This document shows, piece by piece, positions 9,138 through 32,057 of a stretch of 44,746 bases of DNA (positions are counted from its first letter, which is position 1; every line of letters starts with the position of its first letter). Under the pieces are notes generated by a model. It had not been told where the DNA came from and did not search any database. It was given only the letters and a program-made list of their open reading frames with translations. The translations under genes and the position numbers were made by a program. Location: positions 1 to 44,746 of the forward strand of contig JAIUNR010000013.1 of NCBI GenBank assembly GCA_020161575.1, written 5' to 3'. Source of the DNA: Pseudomonadota bacterium (lineage in GTDB: Bacteria > Pseudomonadota > Alphaproteobacteria > Rhizobiales > Beijerinckiaceae).

Positions 9138-9152
9138 GATTGCCGCTCAAAT

Positions 9153-9167
9153 GTTCACTTTATGTTC
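9153..9167 (-). promoter_or_regulatory. LexA (SOS) box of the imuA-imuB-dnaE2 operon
   Basis: GTTC at 9153-9156 and GTTC at 9164-9167 are separated by exactly 7 bases. This is the direct-repeat operator GTTC-N7-GTTC (GAAC-N7-GAAC on the gene strand) known for alphaproteobacterial LexA. It lies just upstream of the imuA start, next to AT-rich promoter-like sequence (TTATAAG on the gene strand). DNA damage should therefore induce the whole cassette. Confidence 0.85.
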
Positions 9168-9261
9168 TTATAATCAAAGGTCAGCGTGGCGAGTCAAGAG
9201 CGCGTGCCGGTTCATCGCCAGCATGACGCTCCACTTGAGAGAAGGCCACAAGGACATGGCG

Positions 9262-9283
9262 GTGGTTACACCGTGGTTACAGG
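9262..9283. repeat. phased GTGGTTA repeat, left copy
   Basis: Two GTGGTTA units with starts 11 bases apart (GTGGTTACACC then GTGGTTACAGG). A near-identical pair is found at 9582-9602 on the other side of the tRNA fragment. One helical turn of spacing and placement around an attachment core is what arm-type integrase or excisionase binding sites look like. This role is inferred. Confidence 0.5.
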
Positions 9284-9428
9284 CTCCACCCGCGCACCCG
9301 TGGACAACTCTATATAATCTTTCACGATTTTTCACGGAACGGTCGTCCGACGTCCTTCGTGAAATCTCGTTCAAAATTGTCGATTTTCGTGTATTTTTCT
9401 AGCAATTTCTGATAGTTAAACACATCCC

Positions 9429-9473
9429 CTACGAATCTGGGGGTCAGAGGTTCGAATCCTTTCGGGCGCGCCA
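9429..9473 (+). other. 3' part of tRNA-Arg(ACG): putative attachment site
   Basis: Starting at the anticodon loop CTACGAA (anticodon ACG), the sequence reads the 3' strand of the anticodon stem (TCTGG), variable region GGGTC, T stem AGAGG, T loop TTCGAAT, stem partner CCTTT, the acceptor 3' strand CGGGCGC, discriminator G and encoded CCA. The bases 5' of the loop (ATCCC) cannot pair with TCTGG, and no D arm or 5' acceptor strand exists, so this is not a functional tRNA gene. A 3' tRNA fragment beginning in the anticodon loop is the standard footprint of a tyrosine integrase that uses a tRNA gene as attB. With this orientation the element lies to the left, and the intact tRNA should be beyond its far end. 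Confidence 0.75.
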
Positions 9474-9581
9474 TTTCTCCGAAATATCTGAATGGAAAAA
9501 ACGCGTGGAAACGCGCGGTTTCGGCAATTTCCGCGTGCGTTCGGGCACCAGAACGGCGTTGGCAGGATACCCCGAAAATCC

Positions 9582-9602
9582 GTGGTTATACTGTGGTTAC
9601 AG
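9582..9602. repeat. phased GTGGTTA repeat, right copy
   Basis: GTGGTTATACT followed by GTGGTTACAG, again with an 11-base period, matching the pair at 9262-9283. It overlaps the stop of the decayed gene at 9586-9949. It may be an arm-type recombinase site or a shared relic of two insertions at the same tRNA. Confidence 0.45.
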
Positions 9603-9949
9603 TCACGCTCCTCAACGCCCATGCGCGATCCCGCCAGATCGCGCCTGATTCGTCCCGCAACTGGCGGGTGATCTCTAGGGCAGCCCTCCTTTGCACGCTT
9701 GACCGCTCGCGCATGCTGATCTGGGGTACAATGACGGATAATCCGCGATACCGGGAAGCCTCGTTTCCAGCTGCGCCAATTTGCCGAGAAACTCGCCGAA
9801 TGAAGGCGCATCGTCGACAAGGCCCGCATACCCGGCCTGGCAGGCATCGCCTCGATCTTTCGGCCAAGCGCGGCCACCTCGTGCTGGAGGGTGGCAAAAG
9901 CCTCAACCATGCCGGCTTCCACCGACGCTCCTGTTTCCGCCGTCATCAT
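9586..9949 (-). pseudogene. frameshifted remnant of a small accessory gene (DUF6118-like?)
   Basis: A coherent protein can be read only by changing frame about three times. Frame one gives MMTAETGASVEAGMVEAF and AALGRKIEAMPARPG. A second frame continues AGLVDDAPSFGEFLGKLAQL and then LPGIADYPSL. A third gives TPDQHARAVKRAKEG. A further shift gives ITRQLRDESGAIWRDRAWAL before a stop at 9586. The MTAETG start and the TPDQHARAV block remind me of DUF6118 proteins, which occur near mobilisation genes in alphaproteobacterial plasmids and islands. That family call is tentative; the repeated loss of frame is directly visible. Confidence 0.55.
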
Positions 9950-9991
9950 TCGAATTGAGTGCGCCGATACATAATCGGCGCACCTCAATTT

Positions 9992-11746
9992 TTAGAAGTA
10001 CCTGACTTCTTCCGCCGAGACGCTCAGTGGATCCTTTCCGCGTTTCGAGAGCCAGGAATAGACCGGCGGTACGCGATCGGCGATCGACTCGACGTGGATG
10101 TCGATCAAGCAGGGGCCATCCGAATGGGCAAAAGCCTCTGCGAGCGCGATATCAAGCTCGGCGGCCGTCTTGGCCGTCCAGGCCTTCACATCGAACGCCT
10201 CGGCGATGGCTTGGCCACGCGGAGGCATGAAATCGACGCCAAAGCATTGATTGTGCCCCTTCAGGCGATGCAGTCCCTTGATCCAGCCGAAAGTGCCGTT
10301 GTTGAACAGCAATAGGATTGCCGGCACATTCAGGCGAACGAGCGTCTCAAGTTCGCCGACAGTCATGCCAAATGAGCCGTCGCCGAACATGCCGATCGGG
10401 CGCCGCTTCTTGTCCGCATGCCATGCCCCGACGGTTGCCGGCAACGCCGAACCGAGGCCTCCGAAGGCCCGCGGGATCGCAAAGCGGGTCCGGCGGTCCT
10501 TAAGCTTGAGGAACCGCGTCATGTGGGGGGTCGGCGTACCGGCGTCCGAGTAAATATGCGCTGGCTTCCCGTAAGCTTCCAGTGCTTCGTTGAAGCAGCG
10601 TACAGCTCGTTCTGGACGGAGCGGCATGGCCTCCGAACTCAGCAATGCCTCGGCGTTCTTCCAGAATTCCGCCCGCAAAGCGTTGAGGTCTTCGATCCAG
10701 TCCTGCGTCCGGCCCGTGTCTGCCGGCTCGGGAACCATCTCGATAAGACGTTGCAGCACGAGCCTGGCATCGCCCGGGATCGACAGGACGTTCTCGTAAT
10801 TGTTCGCCATGATCTCTGGATCGATGTCGATCTGCGCGACCCGCTTGTTCAGCGTGATCTTCGGGAAGGTCCAACCGATGGTGACGACCGAGCCCATCCT
10901 GGAACCGACGAAGAGCACGAAATCGGCTTGCTCCAGCGCCCAGTTGGCATGGGGATGAAAGCCGTTATCGCCAATGACCCCGACAGCGAGCCGGTGGTCG
11001 TCGGGCATCGTGCCTTGGCCGGTCATCGTGGTGCAGACCGGGATGTTCAGGCGCTCGGCAAGTTCAGTCACCTCCGGTCCGGCGCAGGAGCGGTTCACAC
11101 CACCACCGGAGACGATCAGCGGGCGTTTGCTGGCGGTGAGCTGCGACAGGAGCGCCTCCAGCTTGCCGGGAGCCGGTAGCGTCGGAAAGGCCGGGAATTG
11201 CTTGCATTCCTCTTCGACGTGCAACGAAATGCGCGCGGGATCGACCTCCGCGATCAGCATGTCCTCCGGAATCTGAAGATGGACCGCCCCGGGCTTGCCC
11301 GAGCAGGCGACCCGGAACGCCCGGCGGATGATCTCAGGCAGCTTCTCCGGCGACTTTACCTGCACCGACATCTTGGTGATCGGTTCGAAAAGGCGCGCGC
11401 AATCGAGTTCGGTCAGCACCCCGCGCCCTTCGCCTGGCAGCGGGATGTCGATCGTCAGCAGGATGACGGGAACAGAGGAAGCGTTGGATTCAGCGACAGG
11501 GGGCAATGAATACATCGCGCCGGCGCCCGATGGGCACTCGAAAACTCCGGGCTTGCTGGTGAAGCGGCCATAGGCGTCCGCCATGTAGCCGGCAGAGCGC
11601 TCGTCACGCGCCATGACATGCCGAATTTGATCTTCCCGCCCCTGTAGAGCTTCGTAGAAGGGCACATTCGTATCGCCGGGGACGCCAAAAACGACTTCGA
11701 CGCCGTAGCCTATGAGCATCTCGACCAAAATGTCCGCACCGCGCAT
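9992..11746 (-). CDS. thiamine diphosphate-dependent enzyme, acetolactate synthase-like
   Basis: A 584-residue enzyme of the acetolactate synthase / 2-oxoacid decarboxylase superfamily. The N-terminal Pyr domain has GVEVVFGVPGD and the conserved cofactor-activating glutamate E49 in RDERSAGYMADAYGR. A central domain follows (PLIVSGGGVNRS). The C-terminal PP domain has GDGSFGMTVGELETL from residue 455 and ends in LLLFNNGTFGW, the metal/diphosphate motif. Start set at 11746 because of GAGGAG 6 bases upstream; the open frame reaches 11854. It is the last gene of a leftward unit with an amino-acid transporter, racemase and FAD dehydrogenase, so a 2-oxoacid derived from the transported amino acid is the likely substrate (inference). 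It is not obviously an anabolic acetolactate synthase, since no small subunit is adjacent. Exact reaction unknown. Confidence 0.8.
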   Translation of the reverse strand: MRGADILVEMLIGYGVEVVFGVPGDTNVPFYEALQGREDQIRHVMARDERSAGYMADAYGRFTSKPGVFECPSGAGAMYSLPPVAESNASSVPVILLTIDIPLPGEGRGVLTELDCARLFEPITKMSVQVKSPEKLPEIIRRAFRVACSGKPGAVHLQIPEDMLIAEVDPARISLHVEEECKQFPAFPTLPAPGKLEALLSQLTASKRPLIVSGGGVNRSCAGPEVTELAERLNIPVCTTMTGQGTMPDDHRLAVGVIGDNGFHPHANWALEQADFVLFVGSRMGSVVTIGWTFPKITLNKRVAQIDIDPEIMANNYENVLSIPGDARLVLQRLIEMVPEPADTGRTQDWIEDLNALRAEFWKNAEALLSSEAMPLRPERAVRCFNEALEAYGKPAHIYSDAGTPTPHMTRFLKLKDRRTRFAIPRAFGGLGSALPATVGAWHADKKRRPIGMFGDGSFGMTVGELETLVRLNVPAILLLFNNGTFGWIKGLHRLKGHNQCFGVDFMPPRGQAIAEAFDVKAWTAKTAAELDIALAEAFAHSDGPCLIDIHVESIADRVPPVYSWLSKRGKDPLSVSAEEVRYF

Positions 11747-11850
11747 GTTTTTCTCCTCGAAGTGATGGTGTATTCGGTTGTCTGGTTTGGGCAGCTCCGC
11801 GATCGGTTGCCGCCGAGAATGCTTCGTCTCGTCATTTCGAAGAGCCCCTC

Positions 11851-13122
11851 TCATCCCGCCCGTCCGATCCAGCGGAAGCGTCGAGGAGAGAAGGGCTTCA
11901 AATCGCGATCACTTGGCCTGCCCGCGATCTGGTCGGCGACTATCCGTCCCGTGGTGGGCCCGCTGGCGAAGCCGACATGGCCGTGACCGAATGCGTAGAC
12001 GACGTCGTCAGAACGAGAGGATGAGCCGATGACCGGCAGGCCGTCGGGCGTCGAAGGCCGGTGGCCCATCCATCGATCGACGACGAGATCCGTCTTGCGG
12101 CCGAGCGACGGGTATGTCTTCAGCGCGTGATCGACCAGGATATCAACGCGGTTCCAACTCGGCGGCGTATCGACGGATGCAAGCTCGACCTGCCCCGAGA
12201 GACGCAATCCCTTCGCCGTAGGCGTATTCGCCATCTTACCGTCGCTCGGCATGACGGGATGCAATGGGCCACCGCGAGGAGACGCAATGACTCCGTGATA
12301 GCCGCGTTCCGACTCGAGCGGGACCCGATCGCCTGCAATTTGGGCGAGCTTCTTCGACCACACGCCTGCGGCGATCACGGCCCTGTCGCATGCCAAAGGG
12401 CCGCTTTCGGTCAGGATCGATCTAAGTCGCCGCCCCTCGAAGGCGAGATCGACGACCTTCGTCTTCAGAAGCTTCGCACCGCGCGCGACTGCGGCATCGA
12501 TGATCGCGGACACATAGGATTCCGGATCAACGCAATGCGCGCCATCTTCCGCGAGAACGCCGAACCTGTAATGTTCGGACAGGCCGGGTTCTCGTGCGGA
12601 GAGCTCGGCGGCGTCGAGCTCGCGCCAGCGTAGCCCCGTCAATCGGCGAAGGTGCCATGCAAGGGCCTCCGCCTCGAAATGCTCGCGGCTCGGATAAGCA
12701 TAGAGCAGGCCTTCGCGACGGATTAGATCCTGGCGCCCGAGCTCCTCCGCGAGGGCGCTATGGCGTGCGGGACTGTCGGCCAGCAGGCTCGCCAGAGCCT
12801 GTGCCGTCCGCTCCACCCGTGGCACAGTCGAACCGGCAACGAGGAAACGGATCAGCCAAGGCAGTAGCGCACCAATATGCCGCCACCTAATGACCAACGG
12901 TCCGTGCGGATTGAGCAGATAGCCCGGAATCTGCCGCCAGAGGCTCGGCGTCGACATCGGGACGACCGAAGCCGGGCTGATCCAGCAACCATGGCCATAG
13001 CTCGCCGACTGACGTCCGCCGGGTTTACCAGGCTCCACGATCGTGACCTGGTGACCATCACGCAGGAGTTCGAGTGCGCAACTCGCGCCCACGATCCCGG
13101 CACCGACGACAACGATATGCAT
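11851..13122 (-). CDS. DadA-like FAD-dependent D-amino-acid dehydrogenase
   Basis: A 423-residue flavoprotein of the DAO/DadA family. It begins with a Rossmann GxGxxG (VVGAGIVGASCALELL) and an acidic residue at the end of the second strand (VTIVE). The C-terminal block DRWMGHRPSTPDGLPVIG and then YAFGHGHVGFASGPTTGRIVADQI is the classic ending of DadA-type dehydrogenases. These enzymes oxidise D-amino acids, or cyclic imino acids such as pipecolate and proline, to the oxo acid or imine and pass electrons to the respiratory chain. The position after racemase and transporter genes suggests it oxidises the D-isomer made by the racemase. D-lysine, D-2-aminoadipate and pipecolate are all possible in view of the neighbouring 2-aminoadipate operon. 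Substrate not readable from sequence. Confidence 0.85.
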   Translation of the reverse strand: MHIVVVGAGIVGASCALELLRDGHQVTIVEPGKPGGRQSASYGHGCWISPASVVPMSTPSLWRQIPGYLLNPHGPLVIRWRHIGALLPWLIRFLVAGSTVPRVERTAQALASLLADSPARHSALAEELGRQDLIRREGLLYAYPSREHFEAEALAWHLRRLTGLRWRELDAAELSAREPGLSEHYRFGVLAEDGAHCVDPESYVSAIIDAAVARGAKLLKTKVVDLAFEGRRLRSILTESGPLACDRAVIAAGVWSKKLAQIAGDRVPLESERGYHGVIASPRGGPLHPVMPSDGKMANTPTAKGLRLSGQVELASVDTPPSWNRVDILVDHALKTYPSLGRKTDLVVDRWMGHRPSTPDGLPVIGSSSRSDDVVYAFGHGHVGFASGPTTGRIVADQIAGRPSDRDLKPFSPRRFRWIGRAG

Positions 13123-13327
13123 ATTCGTTTCCGTGTCTGAAGAGTTTTCGATGGTTAGCCAGCGGCCCGGAGAGACATGCAGAGCACCAGCCCTTCCTCA
13201 TCGGAGGAAAGGTGAAGCCTTGCGCAAGTGCGGTCGGACCGTCGGGATTTCGGCGAAGACACCGAACATCCTGGTTCAGAATGATGTGCGGGCGTGCCTC
13301 TGGCCGTCCGCGATCAGCGGCGCCTGC

Positions 13328-14104
13328 TCATGATGGGCCGAGCCCTCCATGAAAATGGCTGAGGAAAGCCTTGGTCGCGGCCTGCGACGGGTTTTCGATC
13401 ACCTGTTTCGCCTCGCCCTCCTCGACGACGCAGCCGTCTCGCATGAACACGACGCGATCGGCGACATCGCGCGCAAAGGCCATTTCATGCGTCACCAGCA
13501 GCATCGTCATGCCTTCACCTGCCAGGGACCGGATCACGGCCAGAACTTCACCAACGAGCTCGGGATCGAGCGCGGAGGTCGCCTCGTCGAAGAGCATGAC
13601 ATCGGGCTTCATTGCCAATGCCCGGGCAATCGCAACACGCTGCTTCTGGCCGCCCGAGAGGCTGTCGGGTGGGGCGGAGGCCTTCTCGGCAAGCCCAACT
13701 TTGCCCAGAAGATCATGGGCCAGCGCCCTCGCTTCGTCCTTGGACTGCCGAAGTACGGTGACCGGCCCTTCCATCACGTTCTGCTCCACGCTCATATGGG
13801 GGAACAGATTGAAGCTCTGGAAGACCATGCCGGTGCGCGCTCGGAAGGCCGACAATTCCTTGTCACCTGGCAGATTTTGCGCCGTCGAGAAATCAATCGC
13901 CTGGTCACCGACCCGGATGAAGCCTTTATCCGGTACTGTCAGCAGGTTGACGCTGCGCAGCAAGGTCGATTTACCGGAGCCGCTGGGGCCGATCAGGGCG
14001 ACGACATTGCCTCTTTTCACGTTCAGCGTGATGTCCTTCAGCACCGTGAGGTTGCCGAATGACTTCTGAACGCCGACGAGTTCGATCATTGCTTTTTCGG
14101 ACAT
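13328..14104 (-). CDS. amino-acid ABC transporter ATP-binding protein (GlnQ/HisP type)
   Basis: A 258-residue ATPase of the polar amino-acid uptake family (PAAT). Walker A is [12 protein letters not shown], the Q-loop region is [16 protein letters not shown], the signature is [15 protein letters not shown] and Walker B is [14 protein letters not shown], with the switch histidine in [15 protein letters not shown] serves as ribosome site for the ATG at 14104; a second ATG at 14089 is possible. The gene directly follows the permease and precedes the dehydrogenase on the same strand. It energises uptake of the substrate bound by the protein encoded at 15608-16456. Confidence 0.93.
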
Positions 14105-14123
14105 GATTGCCGCCTTTCCGCGT

Positions 14124-14783
14124 TCAGCGGCTCATCCGCGCTTCGAGCCGATAGGCCAGGCGCGTGAGCGGGAAGAGGATGATGAAATAGATAACGGCGA
14201 TCATCGTATAGGTCTCGAGAGGCCGGTAGCTCGCCGATGTGATCAACTGCCCTTGGTAGAGAAGGTCGGGAACGGCGAGAACCGAAAGCAGCGAGGTGTT
14301 CTTCAGTTGAAGTACGGTTTGGTTCACCAGCGGCGGGATCATACGGCGCAGGGCCTGGGGTAGAACCACGCGCGCCATGAGCTGATGCCGCCGCATGCCA
14401 ATCGCCCGCCCGGCGTCCCACTGGCCGGAATCAACCGAGATGATGCCTCCGCGGATGATCTCGCCGAAAAACGAGGCGCCGTAGAGGGTAAGGGTGATAA
14501 AGGCGGCCGCACCGGGCGACAGTTCGATACCTGTGAGGATCGGCAAAGCGTAATAGCACCAGACGAGTTGGACGAGCACCGGCGTGCATCTGAAGATTTC
14601 GATGAATCCTGTCACGAACGCGGTCAGGATCCTGAAGCTGGACAGACGCGCCAGCGCGACCAGACAGCCGACGATCAGGCCAGATATCGCAGTCCCGATC
14701 GTGAAGGCAATCGTGTAGAGAATGCCGACCCCGATGAGCGATTTATACTGCAGAAGAAATCCGAAATCCCACTGATACTGCAC
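14124..14783 (-). CDS. amino-acid ABC transporter permease (HisM/GlnP type)
   Basis: A 219-residue inner-membrane subunit with several hydrophobic spans (for example [20 protein letters not shown] and [20 protein letters not shown]). The EAA-like loop [21 protein letters not shown] contacts the ATPase. I choose the GTG at 14783, because AGAGGGGG lies 7 bases upstream and homology starts with [14 protein letters not shown]; longer in-frame starts add a poor-quality leader. It is the only permease gene in the unit, so it would have to work as a homodimer, or a partner is encoded elsewhere. Confidence 0.9.
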
Positions 14784-14821
14784 GTCTGCCCCCTCTTTTA
14801 CTTTTTTATTCGTATTTAATT

Positions 14822-15490
14822 TTAGGACGTCCCTGCGTGCAGCCAGCAACCAAGCGTCAGGATGTCGAAAACGGGAAGCTCGAACCGCTTGCGGATCACT
14901 GCTGAGAACGGTGGCAGATTGGTGCATTCCAGCACGATAGCTCCGATGGAGGGTTCGCGCTCGATGAGACCTTCCACCGCCTGCAACAGCTCCCTTTCCA
15001 ATGCCTGACGATCATAAGGTCGACCGCCTTCGATCAACCCATGAAATGCGCCGTCCCTGGGCAGTCCGACAACCGGCGGTTCCAAGGTCATCCCGGCTTC
15101 GGCGAAGTGAGCCGTCGTCAGAGACAATCGATCGTAGGTTACCACGCCCACGCTTTTCCCCGCGGGCAGCAGCTTGGCCACTTGCGGTATCTGCAGCAGG
15201 CTTGATGTCGCCAGCGGCAAGGCCAGGCGGCCGGCGAGCTTGCGCTGGCGCAGGATCAGGAAACCGCAGGATGTCGTCAGGGCGCAGGCCCCGCGTCTGT
15301 GCAATTCCTGCCCGGCAGCCACGAAGGCATCCAGCAAATCGTCGTCCCGCCCATCTACGATGGTGCGCGCCGTGGCGCCCTTCACCGTCTCGAAGAGGAC
15401 GGGGAACGGCCAACTTTCCGCGTTTCCGACATCTCCGACCGGTCGCTCGAAAGCGGTATCGAGCATGATCACGCCAAGTGCCTTACTCAT
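14822..15490 (-). CDS. Asp/Glu-type racemase family protein
   Basis: A 222-residue member of the aspartate/glutamate/hydantoin racemase superfamily (cofactor-independent, two-cysteine mechanism). The two candidate catalytic cysteines are C75 in ALTTSCGFLIL and C189 in GAIVLECTNLPPF. The duplicated alpha/beta layout and the length fit. It lies between the binding-protein and permease genes of an amino-acid uptake unit, so it probably inverts the imported amino acid or a derivative for the DadA-like dehydrogenase downstream. The superfamily also includes maleate isomerases and arylmalonate decarboxylases, so racemase activity is likely but not certain. Confidence 0.8.
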   Translation of the reverse strand: MSKALGVIMLDTAFERPVGDVGNAESWPFPVLFETVKGATARTIVDGRDDDLLDAFVAAGQELHRRGACALTTSCGFLILRQRKLAGRLALPLATSSLLQIPQVAKLLPAGKSVGVVTYDRLSLTTAHFAEAGMTLEPPVVGLPRDGAFHGLIEGGRPYDRQALERELLQAVEGLIEREPSIGAIVLECTNLPPFSAVIRKRFELPVFDILTLGCWLHAGTS

Positions 15491-15607
15491 CGCAGTCCTG
15501 CGCTGTCTCCTGCAAGGGCTCGGGCAACGTCATTGAAGGGCCAGATCCCGTTGTCTCACGACGATTGTGAAAGCGACGGACAGGAAGTTTCCCGTCCGTC
15601 CGCTCTG

Positions 15608-16456
15608 TCAAAATTGGATGTCGGCCGGGATGTCCTCTTTCTTCACGCCCACCAGTTCGAGGCTCGACGTGATCCACCCGGACATCACGCCCGAGGAACG
15701 ATTGAATTCCAGCCAATTGTCCACAAAGGTCCGGAACCTTCCACTGTCTTCCGCGCGCACACCGGCACAGGTCGGCTGACGGACGATCGGGCCGGGGACA
15801 ACGATCTTGCCAACGCGCGGATTCTTCTTGACCGTCACCAGCGACAGCATGGCGACCTGGATGACGGCGTCCGCGCGTCCGGTCTGCACCGACAACGTCG
15901 CCTCATCCGGCGTCTTCAGGGCGATCAAGGTCGCCTTCGGCAGCACACGGCGGGCGAACAGATCATGCGTCGAGCCAATATCGACGGCGATGCGGATTTC
16001 CGGCTTGTTGAGCTCTTCCCAGCTCTTGGGTTCGAGGCCGGCTTTGGCGATGATCGTGAACGTGTTCTGCATGATTGGCCGAGTGAATTCGACCACGAGA
16101 GCCCGCGAGGGCGTCGGGCTCAAGCCGAACATTATGTCGATCTTGTTGGCCTGCAGGTCCAGCACAGCGTTGCCCCAAGTCGTCTCGCTGATCTCAACCT
16201 CGGCTTCGAGTGCCTTCGCGAGATCCCGCGCCATGCTCATGCAGAAACCTGACCATTGGCCGGTCGCAATGTCCTTGTGGTAATAGGGCTCGGTGCCGAC
16301 GATACCTGCGATGCGCAGCTTTTTTGTACTACGGACCCGATCGAACGTTGACGAGGCTGTGCCGCCCTGCTGCGCAAGCGCAGGCATGGACAATGCAGCC
16401 GCGGCGCCGCCTGCGGCTAGCCCCACGAGCCCGGCGAATTCTCTCCGCTTGATCAT
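15608..16456 (-). CDS. amino-acid ABC transporter substrate-binding protein (family 3)
   Basis: A 282-residue periplasmic binding protein. The start at 16456 is set by GGGAGGAAAA about 6 bases upstream; the frame is open further but without homology. The N-terminus MIKRREFAGLVGLAAGG then ALSMPALAQ is a signal peptide with a twin-arginine-like RREFAG. The mature part has the SBP_bac_3 features: LRIAGIVGTEPYYHKD, then GFCMSMARDLAKALEAEVE and LQANKIDIMFGLSPTPSRA, and later VQTGRADAVI. It is the first gene of the leftward unit and is divergent from a LysR gene 144 bases away. It should bind the amino acid that the unit degrades. Confidence 0.92.
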   Translation of the reverse strand: MIKRREFAGLVGLAAGGAAAALSMPALAQQGGTASSTFDRVRSTKKLRIAGIVGTEPYYHKDIATGQWSGFCMSMARDLAKALEAEVEISETTWGNAVLDLQANKIDIMFGLSPTPSRALVVEFTRPIMQNTFTIIAKAGLEPKSWEELNKPEIRIAVDIGSTHDLFARRVLPKATLIALKTPDEATLSVQTGRADAVIQVAMLSLVTVKKNPRVGKIVVPGPIVRQPTCAGVRAEDSGRFRTFVDNWLEFNRSSGVMSGWITSSLELVGVKKEDIPADIQF

Positions 16457-16565
16457 GTCATTTTCCTCCCTTGGTAACAGGCGCATCGAGTTGATCTCGT
16501 CGCATTGGGCGCAAGTCTCGCCGATTTCAGCTGGAGGGAAAAACGTTGAATAGGCGCGGATTGCA

Positions 16566-16578
16566 TGATTTTTATTCA
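16566..16578. promoter_or_regulatory. candidate LysR operator (T-N11-A)
   Basis: TGATTTTTATTCA has the T-N11-A form with inverted ends (TGA/TCA), extended by ATGA/TTCAT. It lies in the 144-base divergent region between the binding-protein gene and the LysR gene at 16601, where a LysR regulator would be expected to bind. Motif is short; pattern match only. Confidence 0.4.
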
Positions 16579-16600
16579 TACTGAAGACATCGAGTGACCC

Positions 16601-17542
16601 ATGCGACGTTACCTCCCCTCTCTCGCCTCCCTACATGCGTTCGAAGCGGCAGCCCGTTTCATGAACTTCACGCATGCCGCGGAGGACCTGGGTCTGACGC
16701 AGAGCGGCATCAGCCGGCAGATAAAGAATCTCGAGGATTTTCTAGGCGTAACGCTTTTCCATCGCGCCGGACCACGCCTCATTCTAACCGAAGTTGGCGC
16801 CGTCTATTTTCGGGATCTCTCGCTCGTACTCGACAAACTTCAGGAAATTTCGATCGACGCCGTCAGAGGGCGAAGTGTCGATTCCTCGCTTATGATAGGC
16901 GCGCACAATGCCTTCACGACCCGCTGGCTGATCGAGCGGCTCAACCCATTCATCCTTGCGCATCCAGATATCCCGATCGAGATCATGCCTGCAGAGCCGG
17001 GAATGGATTTCGAGACGACCCGACTGGACATCGCAATTCTGCGTGGAGGCGGCTCCTGGTATCACGCGCGGGCGGTCGAGCTGTTCGCGGAAGAGCTCGT
17101 CGTCGTCGCGTCGCCATCGCTGATCCCCCATGGGCAGAAACTCAAACCGCTCGAATTCGCAAACTATCCGATGCTGCAGAATGCCAGTCGGCCCAGCTTG
17201 TGGCTGCACTGGCTGCGCACCGTCGAACTCGCCTATAACGGGCGCATTCACGGCACGCGCTTCGCCCATAACGACATGCTGATCAAGGCGGCGGTCCATG
17301 GTCTCGGCATCGCCGTCGTGCCGACCTGCTTCGTCGAGGACGAACTGGCGCGAGGGGAACTACACGCGCCCTTCGGCGATCCCATCCGCTCCGGTGATTC
17401 CTATTTTGCCGTCTATCCCGAACGCAAGGCCGGCCTGCCGAGCATCATCCTGTTCCGGGATTGGCTGATACGCCAGACGCGCGAATACAAGCGTGCCGCC
17501 ACGCGCCAGCAATCCGGCGCCGTCCAGTCGCAGGGATGCTGA
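16601..17542 (+). CDS. LysR-family regulator (GcvA-like)
   Basis: A 313-residue LysR-type transcription factor. The N-terminal winged helix-turn-helix reads LHAFEAAARFMNFTHAAEDL then LTQSGISRQIKNLEDFLGV and LFHR. The effector domain follows (SLMIGAHNAFTTRWLIERL, later LGIAVVPTCFVEDELARGEL), of the GcvA subgroup. It is divergent from the binding-protein operon and most likely controls it in response to the transported amino acid. Its 3' end converges with the second LysR gene, with only 4 bases between the stops. Confidence 0.9.
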   Translation: MRRYLPSLASLHAFEAAARFMNFTHAAEDLGLTQSGISRQIKNLEDFLGVTLFHRAGPRLILTEVGAVYFRDLSLVLDKLQEISIDAVRGRSVDSSLMIGAHNAFTTRWLIERLNPFILAHPDIPIEIMPAEPGMDFETTRLDIAILRGGGSWYHARAVELFAEELVVVASPSLIPHGQKLKPLEFANYPMLQNASRPSLWLHWLRTVELAYNGRIHGTRFAHNDMLIKAAVHGLGIAVVPTCFVEDELARGELHAPFGDPIRSGDSYFAVYPERKAGLPSIILFRDWLIRQTREYKRAATRQQSGAVQSQGC

Positions 17543-17546
17543 CGGG

Positions 17547-18434
17547 TTAGCCGACCTGCGACAGCAACCAGGCCTCGAACAGGTCGACGATCTGATTCTC
17601 GCGCCTCGTTTCCGACCGGACCACGTAATAGGCGTTCTGCGTCGACATGGGCGCATCGAGCATGGCGACGAGCGCGCCCGAGCGGAGCTCGTCCTCGACG
17701 AGATAGGTCGGGAGCAGGGCGACGCCGAGCCCTGCCATGGCCGCCGCGGTGATCATGGCAAACTGGTCGAAGCGGATGCCGTGATAGGCATTGTCCGCCG
17801 GACCGACATGAAGTTGGAACCATTCGGCCCATAGCTTCGGCCGCGTTGTCAGATGCAGGAGCGGGGTTTCCAGCAGATCGGCGGGGCGGTCGACGCGAAG
17901 GCTCGCTGCAAGCGCCCTGCCCGCGATCGGCAGAACCGTCTCGGTGCAAAGAAAGGTCGGCATTCCGCCAGCCCAGACAGGCTGCCCGAAATGGATGGCG
18001 AGGTCGAAATTCTCTTCCGCGAAGCTAAACGGCCGCGATCTGGACTCTACGGTCACGGCGACGTCGGAATGCTGCCTGAGGAAGCCGCCGATCCTCGGAA
18101 CCAGCCACTTCGCGCCAAAGGTCGGCAGCGTTGCGATCCTTAGCGAGGTCTTCATCTGTCCGGCTGCCACGGCACCGATCATCAGGCGCTCCGACTGGAG
18201 CAGGAGATCTCGGACTTCCGGCAGCAGGCGCTGGCCGGCTTCGGAGAGGACGACACGCTGGCGAATGCGCTCGAAGAGCCTGAGCCCTGTCTGATCCTCC
18301 AATTCGGCGATCTGCCGGCTCACGGCGCTCTGCGTCAGGTTCAATTCCTGGGCGGCACGCGAGAAATTTTGGTGGCGGGCGGCACATTCGAAGGCTTGCA
18401 GATTGACGATGTCCGGGATCAGGCGTCGACGCAT
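17547..18434 (-). CDS. LysR-family regulator (GcvA-like), likely activator of the hglS operon
   Basis: A 295-residue LysR-type regulator, related to its convergent neighbour. The HTH reads LQAFECAARHQNFSRAAQEL and LTQSAVSRQIAELEDQTGL, and the C-terminal domain includes LGVALLPTYLVEDELRSGAL. The start at 18434 (MRRRLIP) is chosen because family homology begins there; a longer frame reaches 18614 but runs into the hglS gene. It is divergent from hglS with a 106-base gap that contains a T-N11-A palindrome. The shared ending (ATYLVEDEL-like) of the two LysR proteins suggests an old duplication. Confidence 0.9.
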   Translation of the reverse strand: MRRRLIPDIVNLQAFECAARHQNFSRAAQELNLTQSAVSRQIAELEDQTGLRLFERIRQRVVLSEAGQRLLPEVRDLLLQSERLMIGAVAAGQMKTSLRIATLPTFGAKWLVPRIGGFLRQHSDVAVTVESRSRPFSFAEENFDLAIHFGQPVWAGGMPTFLCTETVLPIAGRALAASLRVDRPADLLETPLLHLTTRPKLWAEWFQLHVGPADNAYHGIRFDQFAMITAAAMAGLGVALLPTYLVEDELRSGALVAMLDAPMSTQNAYYVVRSETRRENQIVDLFEAWLLSQVG

Positions 18435-18483
18435 ATCATTCCAATTCCACATCAACCTAGCCGAATATCTCACAACAACGGCG

Positions 18484-18500
18484 CATAAACCAGCCCTATG
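18484..18500. promoter_or_regulatory. candidate LysR operator, CATA-N9-TATG
   Basis: CATAAACCAGCCCTATG is an inverted repeat CATA-N9-TATG containing T-N11-A, centred 48-49 bases before the hglS start in the divergent region shared with the LysR gene at 17547. Position and form suit an activator site; inference from pattern. Confidence 0.45.
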
Positions 18501-18540
18501 TTGCCACTCTCGAATGACATGGCATTTATGGAAGGGTTCG

Positions 18541-19938
18541 ATGATGTCCGATTTTCTCTCCGCCGACGAAATCCGCGCTTCGTTTTCCGCCGCCATGTCG
18601 GCCATGTATCGCAACGAAGTTCCGGCCTACGGCACTTTGATGGACCTCGTCGCGCAGGTGAACGACGACACCCTCGCGCGGCAACCGGCATTGCGGGAGC
18701 GTCTGGACGCGACCGACAGCCTCGACCGGATCTCGGAGGAGCGGCATGGCGCCGTTCGCCTGGGAACCGCCGCGGAGCTGGCGATGATGCGCCGCGTCTT
18801 TGCGGTGATGGGCATGTATCCCGTCGGCTATTACGATCTCTCGACCGCAGGCGTGCCGGTCCATTCCACGGCGTTCCGCCCGGTCGGCGCCGCCGCGCTG
18901 GCACATAATCCGTTTCGTGTCTTTACCTCGCTGCTGCGCCTCGACCTGATCGCCGACGAGGAACTGCGCGAGGCCGCCGGCCGCATCCTGGCCGCGCGCC
19001 GGATCTTCACGACCGGCGCCGTCGCACTGACCGAAAAGGCGGAGCGTGATGGCGGGCTCGCACGGGCCGATGCCGAGCGTTTCGTGACGGAGGTTTTGGA
19101 AACCTTCCGCTGGCACCGCGAGGCGAATGTCGATGCGGCGATGTATCACCGCCTGCACGAGGCTCATCGCCTGATCGCGGACGTGGTCTCCTTCAAGGGG
19201 CCCCATATCAACCACCTGACGCCCCGGACGCTCGACATCGACCAGGTCCAGGCGCTGATGCCCGAACACGGCATCGCGCCGAAGGCGGTGGTGGAAGGCC
19301 CGCCCACTCGCAAATGCCCGATCCTGCTGCGCCAGACCTCTTTCAAGGCGCTGGAGGAAAGCGTGCTGTTTCCGGGCGGTGACGGCACGCACCGGACCGG
19401 CTCGCACACAGCCCGCTTCGGCGAGATCGAGCAGCGAGGAGTCGCGCTGACGCCGAAGGGGCGCGGGCTCTACGACCAGCTTCTCGACGAGGTCCGCAAG
19501 CTGGTGCGGCCGGCGGCCGACGGCTCCAATGCCCGCGCCTATGAGGCTGCACTGGCCCGCGTATTCGAGGCCTTTCCTGACGATTGGGCGGCGATTCGCA
19601 GCGCGGGGCTCGGCTATTTCAGCTATTCCCTGACCGAGAAGGGCAAGGCGGCGGCGCTGTCCGGGCCTTGCGAAGTCGAGACGCTGATCGCGCAGGGGCT
19701 GATCCGCTTCGATCCGATCGTTTACGAGGATTTCCTGCCGGTCAGCGCGGCGGGTATCTTCCAGTCCAATCTTGGCGACGGCGCACAGCAGGAATTCGTC
19801 GCGAGCCCGAATCAGAAGCGCTTCGAGGCCGATCTTGGCGCCTCTGTCCTGAACGAGTTCGAGCATTACGCCGGCATCGAGCAGGCTTCGCTGCAAGCCT
19901 GCCTCGACATGCTGACGCGGCGTTCGGCCGCCGAATGA
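18541..19938 (+). CDS. hglS: 2-oxoadipate dioxygenase/decarboxylase (HglS, DUF1338)
   Basis: A 465-residue non-haem iron enzyme of the DUF1338 family (also called YdcJ). Characterised HglS converts 2-oxoadipate plus oxygen to D-2-hydroxyglutarate and CO2. The family metal triad is visible: H69 in EERHGAVRLG, H225 in INHLTPR and a glutamate in ARFGEIEQRG (about E295). R73, four residues after the first histidine, matches the substrate-binding arginine. GGAAGG lies 5 bases before tandem ATG codons at 18541 and 18544. First gene of a four-gene rightward operon whose other members supply 2-oxoadipate and consume D-2-hydroxyglutarate, which makes the assignment firm. Confidence 0.93.
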   Translation: MMSDFLSADEIRASFSAAMSAMYRNEVPAYGTLMDLVAQVNDDTLARQPALRERLDATDSLDRISEERHGAVRLGTAAELAMMRRVFAVMGMYPVGYYDLSTAGVPVHSTAFRPVGAAALAHNPFRVFTSLLRLDLIADEELREAAGRILAARRIFTTGAVALTEKAERDGGLARADAERFVTEVLETFRWHREANVDAAMYHRLHEAHRLIADVVSFKGPHINHLTPRTLDIDQVQALMPEHGIAPKAVVEGPPTRKCPILLRQTSFKALEESVLFPGGDGTHRTGSHTARFGEIEQRGVALTPKGRGLYDQLLDEVRKLVRPAADGSNARAYEAALARVFEAFPDDWAAIRSAGLGYFSYSLTEKGKAAALSGPCEVETLIAQGLIRFDPIVYEDFLPVSAAGIFQSNLGDGAQQEFVASPNQKRFEADLGASVLNEFEHYAGIEQASLQACLDMLTRRSAAE

Positions 19939-19984
19939 GCCTTCGCCCCGCCGCTATCACCCTAAACATCCGGAGTTCGTGATC

Positions 19985-22767
<2,783 letters not shown>

Positions 22768-22789
22768 ACAAGCGGCCGCTGCATCCGCC

Positions 22790-25700
22790 ATGACCATGAT
22801 CCCGCGTCTTCGCGCTTTCCCCGACTCGAATCCCGTCCCAGCCGGGCTGTTCGAACGCCTGGTCGAAGCCGGCTATGCGGGCGATATCGATGCGGGGGCA
22901 GCAGCCAGGGCGGTGTTCGCGACGGACAACTCCATCTACCAGATGGAGCCGAAGGGCATCATCTTCCCGAAGGGCATCGAGGATCTGCGCATTCTTGCCA
23001 GGGTGCTCGCCGAGCCGCCCTTTCGAGCGATCCCCGTCGTGCCCCGCGGCGGCGGCACCGGCACCAACGGGCAATCCCTGACCACCGGGATCGTGGTCGA
23101 TTGTTCGCGGCATATGAACCGCATCATCGAGATCGACCCCGTGCGCCGCATCGCGCGGGTCGAGGCCGGCGTCGTCAAGGATCAGCTCAACCGGGCCCTG
23201 AAACCTCACGGCCTGTTCTTCGCGCCCGAGCTGTCCACCTCCAACCGCGCCACCATCGGCGGCATGGTCTCGACGGATGCCTGCGGCCAGGGATCGTGCC
23301 TCTACGGCAAGACATCCAACCATGTGCTCGGACTGCGGGTCGTGCTCACGGACGGCGTGGATTGGTGGTCGCGACCTCTCGACGAGGCGGGACTCGCCGA
23401 GACGATGGCGCGCGAGGACCGGGTCGGCGAGATTCATCGAACCGTCGCGCGGATCGCACGGGACCAGCAGGGGCGCATCGCCGAGATATTTCCGCGCCTC
23501 AACCGCTATATGACCGGCTATGATCTGGCCCATATCCGGCGCCAGGATGGCCGTTTTGACCTCAATGCAGTGCTCTGCGGCTCCGAAGGAACGCTGGCGA
23601 TCATCGCAGAGGCGGAGCTCAACCTTCTGCCGATTCCGAAGCACACGGCCCTCGTCAACATCCGCTACGGCAATTTCGAAGCAGCGCTCGAGGATGCCAG
23701 GACGCTGGCGGCGCTCGCGGTCGCATCGGTCGAGACGGTAGACGAGAAGGTTCTCGGCCTCGCCAAGGCCGATATCGTCTGGAACGGCATTGCCCGCTTC
23801 TTCCCCGATGACGCGGCTGGCTCGGCGAACGGCATCAACCTCGCCGAGGTTCTCGCCGATGACGAGGGCGAGCTGGAGCGCAAACTCGCGCAGGTGACGG
23901 CCGCGCTCGACGGCCAGACGAACCGTCGCCATCGCGGTTACACGGTGGCGCGGGGCCATGCCGATGTCGAGGCGATCTGGGCAATGCGCAAGCGCGCCGT
24001 CGGCCTGCTCGGGAATGTGGAGGGCCCGGCGCGGCCGGTGCCCTTCGTCGAGGACACTGCCGTTCCCCCGGAGAACCTCGCGGCCTATATCCGCGAGTTT
24101 CGCGCCCTGCTCGACGGCCACGGCCTGTCCTATGGCATGTTCGGCCACGTGGATGCCGGCGTGCTGCATGTCCGGCCGGCGCTCGATCTTGCGCGCCAAG
24201 ACCATGTCCCGCTGGTTCGCACGATCAGCGACGCAGTGGTGGCGCTGACCCGCAAATATGGCGGGGTTCTCTGGGGCGAGCACGGCAAGGGCGTGCGCTC
24301 CGAATACGTGCCGGAATTCTTCGGCGAGCTCTATCCGAGCCTGCAGGAGATCAAGCACGCCTTCGACCCCGACAACCGGCTCAACCCCGGCAAGATCGCG
24401 ACCCCGACGGCCGGGCCGCTGTTGAGGATCGACGACGTGCCGCTGCGTGGCGCGGTCGATCGCATCATCGGCAACGACATCCGCGCCGCCTTCGACAACG
24501 CCGCCTATTGCAACGGCAATGGCGCCTGTTTCGACTTCGACGAGTCGAGCCCGATGTGTCCCTCCTACAAGGCGACGCGCGATCGGCGCTTCTCGCCGAA
24601 GGGGCGCGCCGCGCTGATGCGCGAATGGCTGCGGCTGCTGGCCGAACAAGGCATCGATCCGCGATCCGAAGCGAAGCATCTGCGCCGCAGCTCCGCCCTG
24701 ACCTCCCTACCTCGGAGGCTCTTCAACAGCCTGAACCCGACAAACCGGAGCGATTTCTCGCACGAGGTGCGTGCGGCGATGGACACCTGCCTCTCCTGCA
24801 AGGCCTGCGCCGGACAATGCCCGGTCAAGGTGAGCGTGCCGGCCTTCCGCTCGAAGTTCCTGGAGCTCTATCACGGGCGCTATCTGCGGCCGCTGAAGGA
24901 CCCGCTGGTCGCGGCCATCGAGAGCCTTTTGCCGCTGCTGGCACGGCTGCGCCCGCTCTACAACCTCGTCGCCGGCACGCGGGCCGGGCGGGCGGCGCTG
25001 CGCGCGGTCGGGCTGACCGCCCTGCCCCTTCTGCCGGCATCGTCCCTGGAACGGGAGGCCGGGCGACTTGGCGTGCGGGTCGCGACCCCAGAGCGGATCG
25101 AAAGCCTCTCTGCCGAGGATCGGAGCCGCGCGGTGATCTTCGTGCCGGACGCCTTCACTGCCCATTTCGATCCGAAGGTCGCGGTGGCCGCGATCGAGCT
25201 CGCGCTCAAGATGGGGTTGATCCCGATGCTCGCACCGCCGCATGTCAACGGCAAGGCGCTGCATGTGCACGGCTATCTCGCCCGCTTCGAGAAGGCCGCC
25301 ATGCGAACCGCCGCGCTCTTCGGCAGGCTCGCCCGCTCGGGAATTCCGCTCGTGGGCCTCGATCCGTCGATGACGCTCGCCTATCGCAGCGAATACCGCA
25401 ATGCGGCCGAGGCGATCCCGGCGCCGAGCGTGCTCCTGCCTCAGGAATGGCTCGCGGCCAATCTCGACAGGCTTCAGGCAAGGGCGGGCGACGCGCCGCA
25501 GCGCGTCGCGCTGCTCGGCCACTGCACCGAGCGAACCAACGCCCCCGCCGCACTCGCACAATGGAAAAGCGTCTTCGGGCAGCTCGGGATCCAGCTCACC
25601 ATCGCCGATGCCGGCTGTTGCGGCATGGCCGGAACCTTCGGTCACGAGCTCCGCAACCGGGAATTGTCGGAGCGTATCTACGCAACGAGCTGGGCAGGGC

Positions 25701-25828
25701 ATGTCGCGGGCGCGACAGCCGATGTCATCTTGACGGCGACGGGCTATTCATGCCGCTCGCAGGTGAAGGCGATCGACGGCAAGACCCTCCCCCATCCAAT
25801 CGAGATCATCAACCTGCTGGCCCGCTGA
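22790..25828 (+). CDS. ydiJ: D-2-hydroxyglutarate dehydrogenase, YdiJ type (FAD + Fe-S)
   Basis: A 1012-residue membrane-associated flavo-iron-sulfur oxidase closing the operon: D-2-hydroxyglutarate to 2-oxoglutarate. The N-terminal FAD-binding PCMH domain has DNSIYQ, PRGGGTGTNGQSL and FFAPELSTSNRATIGGM; an FAD-oxidase C-domain follows. A ferredoxin-like cluster CLSCKACAGQCPVK lies near residue 666, with additional cysteines in CNGNGACFDF and MCPSYK. The C-terminal CCG-like part has GHCTERTN and GCCGMAGTFGHE. Close likeness to E. coli YdiJ is evident through the first 250 residues. The frame is open upstream into the aminotransferase gene; the ATG at 22790 fits the homology. With hglS it completes conversion of 2-oxoadipate to the TCA cycle. 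Confidence 0.92.
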   Translation: MTMIPRLRAFPDSNPVPAGLFERLVEAGYAGDIDAGAAARAVFATDNSIYQMEPKGIIFPKGIEDLRILARVLAEPPFRAIPVVPRGGGTGTNGQSLTTGIVVDCSRHMNRIIEIDPVRRIARVEAGVVKDQLNRALKPHGLFFAPELSTSNRATIGGMVSTDACGQGSCLYGKTSNHVLGLRVVLTDGVDWWSRPLDEAGLAETMAREDRVGEIHRTVARIARDQQGRIAEIFPRLNRYMTGYDLAHIRRQDGRFDLNAVLCGSEGTLAIIAEAELNLLPIPKHTALVNIRYGNFEAALEDARTLAALAVASVETVDEKVLGLAKADIVWNGIARFFPDDAAGSANGINLAEVLADDEGELERKLAQVTAALDGQTNRRHRGYTVARGHADVEAIWAMRKRAVGLLGNVEGPARPVPFVEDTAVPPENLAAYIREFRALLDGHGLSYGMFGHVDAGVLHVRPALDLARQDHVPLVRTISDAVVALTRKYGGVLWGEHGKGVRSEYVPEFFGELYPSLQEIKHAFDPDNRLNPGKIATPTAGPLLRIDDVPLRGAVDRIIGNDIRAAFDNAAYCNGNGACFDFDESSPMCPSYKATRDRRFSPKGRAALMREWLRLLAEQGIDPRSEAKHLRRSSALTSLPRRLFNSLNPTNRSDFSHEVRAAMDTCLSCKACAGQCPVKVSVPAFRSKFLELYHGRYLRPLKDPLVAAIESLLPLLARLRPLYNLVAGTRAGRAALRAVGLTALPLLPASSLEREAGRLGVRVATPERIESLSAEDRSRAVIFVPDAFTAHFDPKVAVAAIELALKMGLIPMLAPPHVNGKALHVHGYLARFEKAAMRTAALFGRLARSGIPLVGLDPSMTLAYRSEYRNAAEAIPAPSVLLPQEWLAANLDRLQARAGDAPQRVALLGHCTERTNAPAALAQWKSVFGQLGIQLTIADAGCCGMAGTFGHELRNRELSERIYATSWAGHVAGATADVILTATGYSCRSQVKAIDGKTLPHPIEIINLLAR

Positions 25829-25952: not shown

Positions 25953-26639
25953 TCACTCGCCCAACAAACGATAGCCGACACCCGGCTCGGTTATGATAAA
26001 GCGCGGGTCAGCGGCATCATCCCCGAGCTTCTCCCGGATATGACCGATGGCGACACGCAGGTAATGCGTATCCTCGGCATGTGCCGTCCCCCAGACGGTC
26101 GTGAGAAGCTGACGGTGCCCCACCAGCCGCCCGGAATGACGTGCGAGCAGTGCCAGCACGTCGAACTCCTTGCGGGTGAGCTTTGCCTCACGTCCGTCCG
26201 CGCGCACGAAGCGCGTGGCAAGGTTGATCTCGAGGGTACCGAAGGTAAGTTCCGCTTTTTCAATCGTACCGATAGGGCGTTTGCGGAGCGCCGCGCGAAG
26301 TCGCGCGAGGAGTTCGCCGGTCGCGAACGGTTTGGTGACGTAATCATCCGCACCAGCATCGAGCGCCGCGATCTTCTCGGCCTCGCCATCACGCACCGAG
26401 AGCACGAGGATCGGCACCTGCGACCATTCGCGGATGCTGGCAATCACTGCCTTGCCGTCGATATCGGGCAGGCCAAGATCAAGAAGAACAGCATCAGGCG
26501 CCAGAACCGCCGCAAGCTCGATTCCCTTGCGGCCTCGTTCAGCCTCCAGCACCTCGAAGCCACCCGCTCCGAGAGCAATCGTCAGGAAACGCCGGATCGG
26601 CGCTTCATCTTCGATAATCAGGATGCGGGGCTGATTCAT
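25953..26639 (-). CDS. kdpE: KdpE response regulator
   Basis: A 228-residue OmpR-family regulator, the transcriptional half of the potassium-limitation two-component system. Receiver: acidic pair ED at 10-11, phospho-acceptor D54 in VLLDLGLPDIDG, and the conserved lysine in DDYVTKPF. C-terminal winged helix: LTRKEFDVLALLARHSGRLV and THYLRVAIGHIREKLGDD. The ATG overlaps the kdpD stop in ATGA (26636-26639), so it is translated after kdpD. It ends the kdpFABCDE operon and converges with ydiJ; the 124 bases between them show no clear terminator. Confidence 0.95.
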   Translation of the reverse strand: MNQPRILIIEDEAPIRRFLTIALGAGGFEVLEAERGRKGIELAAVLAPDAVLLDLGLPDIDGKAVIASIREWSQVPILVLSVRDGEAEKIAALDAGADDYVTKPFATGELLARLRAALRKRPIGTIEKAELTFGTLEINLATRFVRADGREAKLTRKEFDVLALLARHSGRLVGHRQLLTTVWGTAHAEDTHYLRVAIGHIREKLGDDAADPRFIITEPGVGYRLLGE

Positions 26640-29377: not shown

Positions 29378-29395
29378 TCCAACCTCAGCATGCCC

Positions 29396-29983: not shown

Positions 29984-29998
29984 GATTTTTCTCCGTTT

Positions 29999-32044: not shown

Positions 32045-32057
32045 TTATATGGACTCC

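Follow-up and report, generated by a model that had tools for sequence, protein, structure and literature searches.

What does a bacterium take up and oxidise with a thiamine diphosphate (ThDP)-dependent enzyme that is encoded beside the lower half of a D-lysine route? The question is raised by a gene island at about 9992..25828 of a 44,746-nucleotide stretch of alphaproteobacterial DNA, here called the window, which belongs to contig C13 of a 3.19-Mb genome. The island consists of two units. From its promoter side, the left unit encodes a solute-binding protein, a racemase-like protein, a permease, an ATPase, a DadA-like FAD enzyme and the ThDP enzyme, and the right unit encodes HglS, an L-2-aminoadipate 6-semialdehyde (AASA)/piperideine-6-carboxylate dehydrogenase, an AspB-like aminotransferase and YdiJ. 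Two genes for LysR regulators with HTH_1 and LysR_substrate domains lie between the units, the one at 16601..17542 (plus strand) divergent from the left unit and the one at 17547..18434 (minus strand, start picked within a longer frame) divergent from the right unit. Judging from the sequence, we give an even chance to the proposal that the island would import 2,6-diaminopimelate (DAP) and oxidise it fully, through a ThDP-dependent decarboxylation to AASA, and we think that the ThDP enzyme is the key of the island and not a side branch.

The proposal follows from the chemistry of the linked enzymes. A ThDP decarboxylase turns a 2-oxo acid into an aldehyde, and the compound that gives AASA by plain decarboxylation is 2-amino-6-oxopimelate, in which one of the amino groups of DAP has been oxidised. 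Since the dehydrogenase linked to the ThDP gene uses AASA, and the 2-oxo acid belonging to AASA is deaminated DAP, DAP suggests itself as the substrate. The ABC system would import DAP, the racemase would convert LL-DAP to meso-DAP, the FAD enzyme would oxidise the D-centre of meso-DAP to give L-2-amino-6-oxopimelate (the open form of tetrahydrodipicolinate), and the ThDP enzyme would decarboxylate this product to AASA. A D-specific FAD enzyme would spare the L-centre of meso-DAP, so that L-AASA would be handed to the next enzyme. AASA dehydrogenase would then form 2-aminoadipate, the aminotransferase 2-oxoadipate, HglS D-2-hydroxyglutarate and YdiJ 2-oxoglutarate. With DAP as the substrate, every gene of the island thus finds a place in one line; DAP itself, the reactions catalysed by the three upper enzymes and the direction in which material flows are predictions.

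The ThDP enzyme (9992..11746, minus strand; start picked within a 620-amino-acid frame, guided by relatives) holds all three TPP_enzyme domains (N, M and C), and of the 53 NCBIfam models matched, the 25 listed all scored it below their cut-offs. An identity as acetolactate synthase (acetohydroxyacid synthase, AHAS) was rejected, as its cut-offs failed and the specificity residues are replaced. When AHAS positions were placed by counting along the alignment with 1jsc, Thr113, Val288 and Leu493 were found instead of Gln202, Arg380 and Trp586 (yeast numbers), which we take to be conserved residues of AHAS, and these three replacements are invariant in 24 sequences. The catalytic Glu50 is retained. 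The loss of the acceptor and specificity residues makes a plain decarboxylase plausible, and together with the linkage described below it led us to the prediction of an L-2-amino-6-oxopimelate decarboxylase. Glyoxylate carboligase was also rejected (241.6 against a cut-off of 791), and AruI, 5-guanidino-2-oxopentanoate decarboxylase (PRK07524), reached 288.8 against a cut-off of 500. In the records examined, the family is annotated solely as 'thiamine pyrophosphate-binding protein'.

The ThDP gene is associated with AASA dehydrogenase both across genomes and in physical position. A contig scan with the ThDP protein as query gave 49 public loci, and 48 ThDP genomes were searched, locus L022 being left out. 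AASA dehydrogenase exceeded its cut-off in 42 of the 48 genomes versus 66 of the 289 genomes of a class sample; the samples differ in make-up, so the Fisher test (p ~2e-18) is only a guide, as is the value of ~4e-6 obtained with large genomes counted by hand. In that hand count, AASA dehydrogenase was present in 29 of 65 class genomes of at least 4 Mb, with three ThDP genomes excluded, one partial copy counted as absent and 17 unlisted genomes of undeterminable size omitted. Four more ThDP genomes have a copy: two frame-broken pieces in G381, frame-broken pieces in G385, one cut by the contig end in G390 and a partial one below the cut-off in G391. At L022 itself, a LysR gene resembling that of the right unit lies near the locus end, and a linked HglS set is possible there.

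Physical linkage was found within ~11 kb in 10 of the 49 loci (L006, L008, L023, L036, L037, L039, L041, L050, L051 and L054, one of the ten dehydrogenase copies being cut by a contig end), against ~0.3 expected for a 13-kb reach. Flanks extended to at most 10 kb, with L037 alone followed further, and some were ended by contig ends, so that ten is a minimum. The linkage also occurs on plasmids of A. pusense and A. leguminum. Its arrangement differs from place to place: in the window the genes are divergent with the LysR genes between them, at L006, L008 and L058 the dehydrogenase gene is convergent and downstream, and at L036 and L039 it is co-directional and downstream. In the Burkholderiales loci L050 and L054 (53-54% identity), the ThDP gene, a flavoprotein of another family and an AASA dehydrogenase above the cut-off lie on the same strand, the latter two sharing one open frame in L050, and upstream on the opposite strand there is an Opp/Nik-type ABC permease gene that falls below all named cut-offs listed. 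Alloyangia locus L043 (G382:C39; L082), which is not among the ten, has AASA dehydrogenase and HglS genes ~17 kb from the ThDP gene, apparently on the same contig. In a quickly built tree of 55 ThDP proteins, the starred branches force at least six changes of the 'linked' label, and the tree as drawn has nine. A saccharopine dehydrogenase-type gene, a possible other source of AASA, is present at L008, L023, L037, L039, L051 and L061.

At the 49 loci, the ThDP gene, having been the query, is the part that stays constant, and the transporter, the racemase and the oxidase around it vary. The transporter is of ABC, TRAP or Opp/Nik type, and the oxidase is DAO, another flavoprotein or a GMC oxidoreductase. 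Nine loci have the left unit of the window with its Asp/Glu-type racemase, and in 13, whose ABC set is more distant, the place of the racemase between ATPase and FAD enzyme is taken by an enolase-superfamily protein. At a further 13 (Brucella/Ochrobactrum, Rhizobium and kin) a LysR gene separates the ThDP gene from the remainder, eight have an FAD enzyme of 29-33% identity, several of these with TRAP genes, and the remaining six are of other kinds. The nearest PDB entry to the enolase-superfamily protein is 3my9, deposited as a muconate cycloisomerase; in the protein itself, a KxK and a later Lys were read by eye, presumably the motif of the racemases of this fold. The same slot is thus filled by one or the other of two unrelated folds capable of racemisation, which supports a racemisation step. 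This exchange of the upper parts, like the gene content, the family of three of the four lower-route enzymes and the link of the ThDP gene with AASA dehydrogenase, was seen directly. In the Mesorhizobium loci L014 (1576-6332) and L015, a GMC oxidoreductase precedes the racemase and the ThDP enzyme (87%), and no DAO-type gene was detected there. At L024, a protein with a borderline L,D-transpeptidase-type match (14112-15113; YkuD_2, 27.7 against 27) adjoins the racemase of the ThDP locus, a neighbour that may hint at a cell-wall link.

More distant ThDP paralogues (~38% identity) in Ruegeria and Leisingera are accompanied by racemase, FAD enzyme and TRAP genes, with no annotated aldehyde dehydrogenase in the stretch viewed, which suggests that a pathway of this design can also act on other substrates. 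One of the marine paralogue loci L063 and L064 adjoins a cystathionine gamma-lyase gene, and these paralogues are perhaps sister routes for other amino acids.

For the right unit, three of the four enzymes exceeded NCBIfam equivalog cut-offs: HglS, the 2-oxoadipate dioxygenase/decarboxylase (18544..19938, plus strand; NF049974, 754.7 against 550) and the sole HGLS-family match in the genome, the AASA/L-piperideine-6-carboxylate dehydrogenase (19979..21517, plus; NF050084, 810.2 against 730), and YdiJ, the D-2-hydroxyglutarate dehydrogenase (22790..25828, plus, start at MTMIPR inferred from the translation; NF049975, 1472.7 against 1350). The class I aminotransferase (21532..22767, plus), a predicted 2-aminoadipate aminotransferase, matches aspartate aminotransferase B (PDB 6f35) at 2.6e-210.

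In the left unit, the racemase (14822..15490, minus), a predicted LL-DAP to meso-DAP epimerase, passes PRK07475, a model titled 'hypothetical protein' (274.7 against 231), and scores 25.3, below the Pfam Asp_Glu_race cut-off of 31; no useful match was found for it in PDB. Its Cys75 is kept in 30 of 30 aligned rows and its Cys189 in 29 of 30, and we assume these to be the two catalytic cysteines of the Asp/Glu racemase superfamily motifs. The DAO-fold FAD enzyme (11851..13122, minus; Pfam DAO, 202 bits), predicted to oxidise the D-centre of meso-DAP, has the D-amino acid dehydrogenase DadA as its best-scoring named model (PRK00711, 180.7 against 383) and gives 32.1 bits with the AmaA model, whose cut-off is 600. 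For the periplasmic family-3 solute-binding protein (15608..16456, minus; SBP_bac_3, GGGAGG ahead of the start), the nearest PDB chains are ancestral cyclohexadienyl dehydratases, followed by amino-acid binding proteins. The best-scoring models of the ATPase (13328..14104, minus; nearest TcyN, PRK11264, 324 bits against 406) and of the BPD_transp_1 permease (14124..14780, minus, start inferred from the length of relatives; PRK15100, 157.3 against 300) are of cystine type and were reached below cut-off. The cystine carriers of E. coli also transport DAP.

Much of this had been anticipated by an earlier reading made from the letters alone, here the sequence-only reading. All twelve genes that it had listed were present as open frames in the positions and on the strands that it gave, and the gene positions agree with its one divergent LysR regulator per unit. 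Its rightward unit as the lower D-lysine route was borne out by the three curated cut-offs, with an aminotransferase that is AspB-like, and its leftward unit of ABC importer, Asp/Glu-type racemase, DadA-like dehydrogenase and ThDP enzyme by the domain and profile matches. Gene content and AASA dehydrogenase linkage also support its picture of a linked two-operon catabolic island with an HglS/YdiJ lower half, and the racemase and the FAD enzyme are likely upper steps, as it had supposed.

A plasmid locus points to the imported compound. On pTiCFBP4996 (L061, 58% ThDP identity), the order is binding protein, two permeases, ATPase, ThDP enzyme, LysA and Asp-dehydrogenase-like protein; the latter two occupy 13884-16047, directly after the ThDP gene, LysA scores 479.6 against a cut-off of 297.9, and a set of aminotransferase, aldehyde dehydrogenase, FAD enzyme and HglS genes adjoins the ThDP-LysA genes. 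LysA acts on meso-DAP, so its place beside the ThDP enzyme suggests DAP as the compound taken up. At the Alloyangia locus, a protein 65% identical to the Asp-dehydrogenase-like one lies between the racemase and the ThDP gene. The available part of the report on pTiCFBP4996 describes it as lacking plant hormone genes (PMC8756689). The ThDP gene was also found in Thalassospira (L026, L027), Mesorhizobium (L014, L015), Azospirillum, Novispirillum and Insolitispirillum, the last three of which were once placed in Rhodospirillaceae. These taxa agree loosely with the families in which DAP enrichments were rich, namely Thalassospiraceae, Rhodospirillaceae and Phyllobacteriaceae, according to the accessible part of the study concerned (PMC9602339).

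Several points weigh against a ThDP-dependent DAP route. In the part of the same study at hand, LysA emerged as the key enzyme behind growth on DAP; in Thalassospira A40-3, where 12 enzyme genes were raised by DAP and not by lysine, no ThDP enzyme was among them (PMC9602339). The aminotransferase passed no named equivalog among the matches listed (best PRK06107, 561.9 against a cut-off of 617), and together with the FAD enzyme, the ATPase and the permease it lies under all named cut-offs listed. AASA dehydrogenase gave no match (E <= 1e-150), nor was a copy found otherwise, in the ThDP genomes G353 and G386; it did not exceed its cut-off in G173 (57% ThDP identity), whose ThDP gene lies near HpaB and hydantoinase genes; and it lies outside ~11 kb in 39 of the 49 loci. 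On the tree, the 'linked' label shows some clustering (8 of 500 shuffles gave a count as low), the linked loci being partly related, and some of its changes may be losses. A LysA relative was seen in no locus fetched besides pTiCFBP4996. In the class sample, where the ThDP search threshold was E <= 1e-170, the ThDP enzyme occurred in 5 of the 289 genomes and HglS over its cut-off in 5, both together solely in the genome of the window; the other four ThDP genomes, three of them of one genus, have no HglS over the cut-off. The support for every island member is computational.

The same genes might serve other substrates. With lysine, which we regard as rather unlikely, L-lysine would be racemised, D-lysine would be oxidised to 2-oxo-6-aminocaproate and decarboxylated by the ThDP enzyme to 5-aminopentanal, and the right unit would work separately on lysine-derived AASA. 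In the arginine transaminase route, an amino acid is converted to its 2-oxo acid, a ThDP enzyme (AruI, the 5-guanidino-2-oxopentanoate decarboxylase) makes the aldehyde and an aldehyde dehydrogenase follows. The racemase, the DadA-like enzyme and the ThDP enzyme resemble this route, with the AruI-type model below its cut-off as given above; the island differs in its AASA-type aldehyde dehydrogenase and in having an FAD enzyme and a racemase instead of a transaminase. Racemisation of lysine also feeds catabolism in P. putida, according to the part of the source available (PMC6034422). However, 5-aminopentanal is not a substrate of AASA dehydrogenase, and lysine would leave the 42 of 48 association and the order of ThDP enzyme, flavoprotein and AASA dehydrogenase unexplained. 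An amino acid of another kind is a doubtful explanation too, in which the left unit would apply the same sequence of racemase, dehydrogenase and decarboxylase and would stand beside the HglS unit by chance or through shared habitats. The Ruegeria and Leisingera paralogues and G173 fit such a case, as does the presence of the left unit without an HglS unit in most of the 49 loci, but the repeated physical linkage and the genome-wide co-presence of the ThDP enzyme and AASA dehydrogenase speak against it. Pipecolate and saccharopine-type substrates were set aside, as they leave the ThDP enzyme without a role.

We consider 2-aminoadipate distinctly improbable: racemase and FAD enzyme would give 2-oxoadipate, and the ThDP enzyme would form glutarate semialdehyde beside HglS. 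A parallel to it is a second AASA dehydrogenase operon in the same genome (L070, G000:C2:86001-105000, 8902-13472), in which the genes for the dehydrogenase (793 bits), for a CaiB-type CoA-transferase whose nearest model, succinate-glutarate, was reached below its cut-off, and for a ThDP enzyme that passes PRK08199 (917 bits against 539) follow one another; an unnamed FAD enzyme lies beside the dehydrogenase, divergent from the operon. This set, also present in four Bosea genomes, looks like the resident lysine/glutarate route, and its PRK08199 enzyme, we infer, acts on 2-oxoadipate. Operon and island each combine an AASA dehydrogenase with a ThDP enzyme, and the two ThDP enzymes are ~29% identical. 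Against 2-aminoadipate, HglS, the expected user of 2-oxoadipate, is in the island and exceeds its cut-off in 29 of the 48 ThDP genomes, and six genomes without HglS over the cut-off have a PRK08199-type gene near AASA dehydrogenase, four of them with a CoA-transferase (L091, L092, L095, L097, L102 and L103; one genome, G387, has HglS fragments). Because HglS or PRK08199 thus seems to serve the 2-oxoadipate step already, 2-oxoadipate is a less likely substrate of the island's ThDP enzyme; moreover, imported aminoadipate would not require AASA dehydrogenase.

This comparison also alters parts of the sequence-only reading. The ThDP side branch on 2-oxoadipate that it offered has become less likely, given HglS in the island and the PRK08199 operon elsewhere in the genome, and with its D-lysine or pipecolate substrate, AASA would be made without any part played by the ThDP enzyme. 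DAP was not among the substrates that it considered. The P. putida route includes genes named DpkA, AmaA and AmaB, and DpkA, the piperideine-2-carboxylate reductase, is on our assumption a member of the Ldh_2 family. No Ldh_2 match (PF02615, E <= 0.001) was found in the whole genome, and the control matched 4 of 14 genomes. This makes the D-lysine route known from pseudomonads unlikely, although a reductase of another family may be present. Of the missing DpkA, AmaA and AmaD that the sequence-only reading had remarked on, the absence of DpkA thus extends to the whole genome and the left FAD enzyme is not AmaA, AmaA and AmaD not having been searched genome-wide. At other places in the genome, two saccharopine dehydrogenase-type genes may provide a route from lysine to AASA. 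The conservation of the neighbourhood, which that reading proposed to check, holds in part: AASA dehydrogenase linkage and HglS recur at the frequencies given above, the set is not universal, and a single genome of the class sample has both the ThDP enzyme and HglS.

The DAP route proposed here can be set beside two described systems. In the part of the source available, the P. putida D-lysine/L-pipecolate route comprises a racemase, a D-amino acid dehydrogenase, a Pip2C reductase, an aminotransferase, HglS and YdiJ (PMC6034422). The island is like it in the lower route from AASA to 2-oxoglutarate and in a racemase and a D-amino acid dehydrogenase on top, and differs in the missing Ldh_2 match, the left FAD enzyme, a racemase of another fold and the added ThDP enzyme. 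As for LysA-dependent DAP use, the accessible part of its description (PMC9602339) shares with our proposal the substrate, Alphaproteobacteria among the users and an end in central metabolism; there, DAP is converted directly to lysine, whereas the island would oxidise it before a ThDP decarboxylation to AASA, bypassing lysine.

The island looks to have been acquired. The ThDP protein (E <= 1e-120) matched none of 16 same-genus genomes, and among 61 genomes, its own included, it matched three others at 40-41% identity; no HglS was found in the 16 genomes, and among the 61 a single genome other than its own had it. The closest ThDP proteins, at 86-92% identity, come from Rhizobium, Agrobacterium, Shinella, Bosea, Mesorhizobium, Azospirillum and others, and 47 plasmid records match (E <= 1e-100), 10 of them at 80% identity or above, 7 at 60-80% and 30 below 60%.

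DAP is an amino acid of bacterial cell walls, and peptidoglycan represents, in soil as in the sea, a large pool of organic nitrogen. From the loci compared, the chances seem evenly balanced that DAP mineralisation bypassing LysA and lysine would be widespread in proteobacteria, with L-2-amino-6-oxopimelate decarboxylase as its signature and with exchanged transporters, racemases and oxidases. The enzymes belong to known superfamilies; what would be new is the route and the decarboxylase, of which no description was found in a search of the largely open literature. The sole study on the subject among the matches listed names LysA for the use of free DAP and, in the part available, leaves other routes open (PMC9602339). 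If the proposal is true, it would provide a second route for DAP use besides LysA, an assayable function for a ThDP family and a marker gene for DAP-using bacteria. A catabolic enzyme would then draw on tetrahydrodipicolinate, which is also an intermediate in making lysine and the cell wall, and tight regulation would therefore be expected.

Repeats and tRNAs were looked for in the window and revealed no island boundary. To the left of the island, frames at 3459-9137 resemble, by eye, a dnaE2-imuB-imuA mutagenesis cassette, of which the ImuB-type IMS domain alone was confirmed. To the right, 25953-33743 resembles a kdp potassium-uptake set (regulator, sensor, C, B, A), the P-type ATPase alone being confirmed. 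A protein with a Prim-Pol domain, a kind that often occurs in mobile elements, is encoded at the left window end (65-1639).

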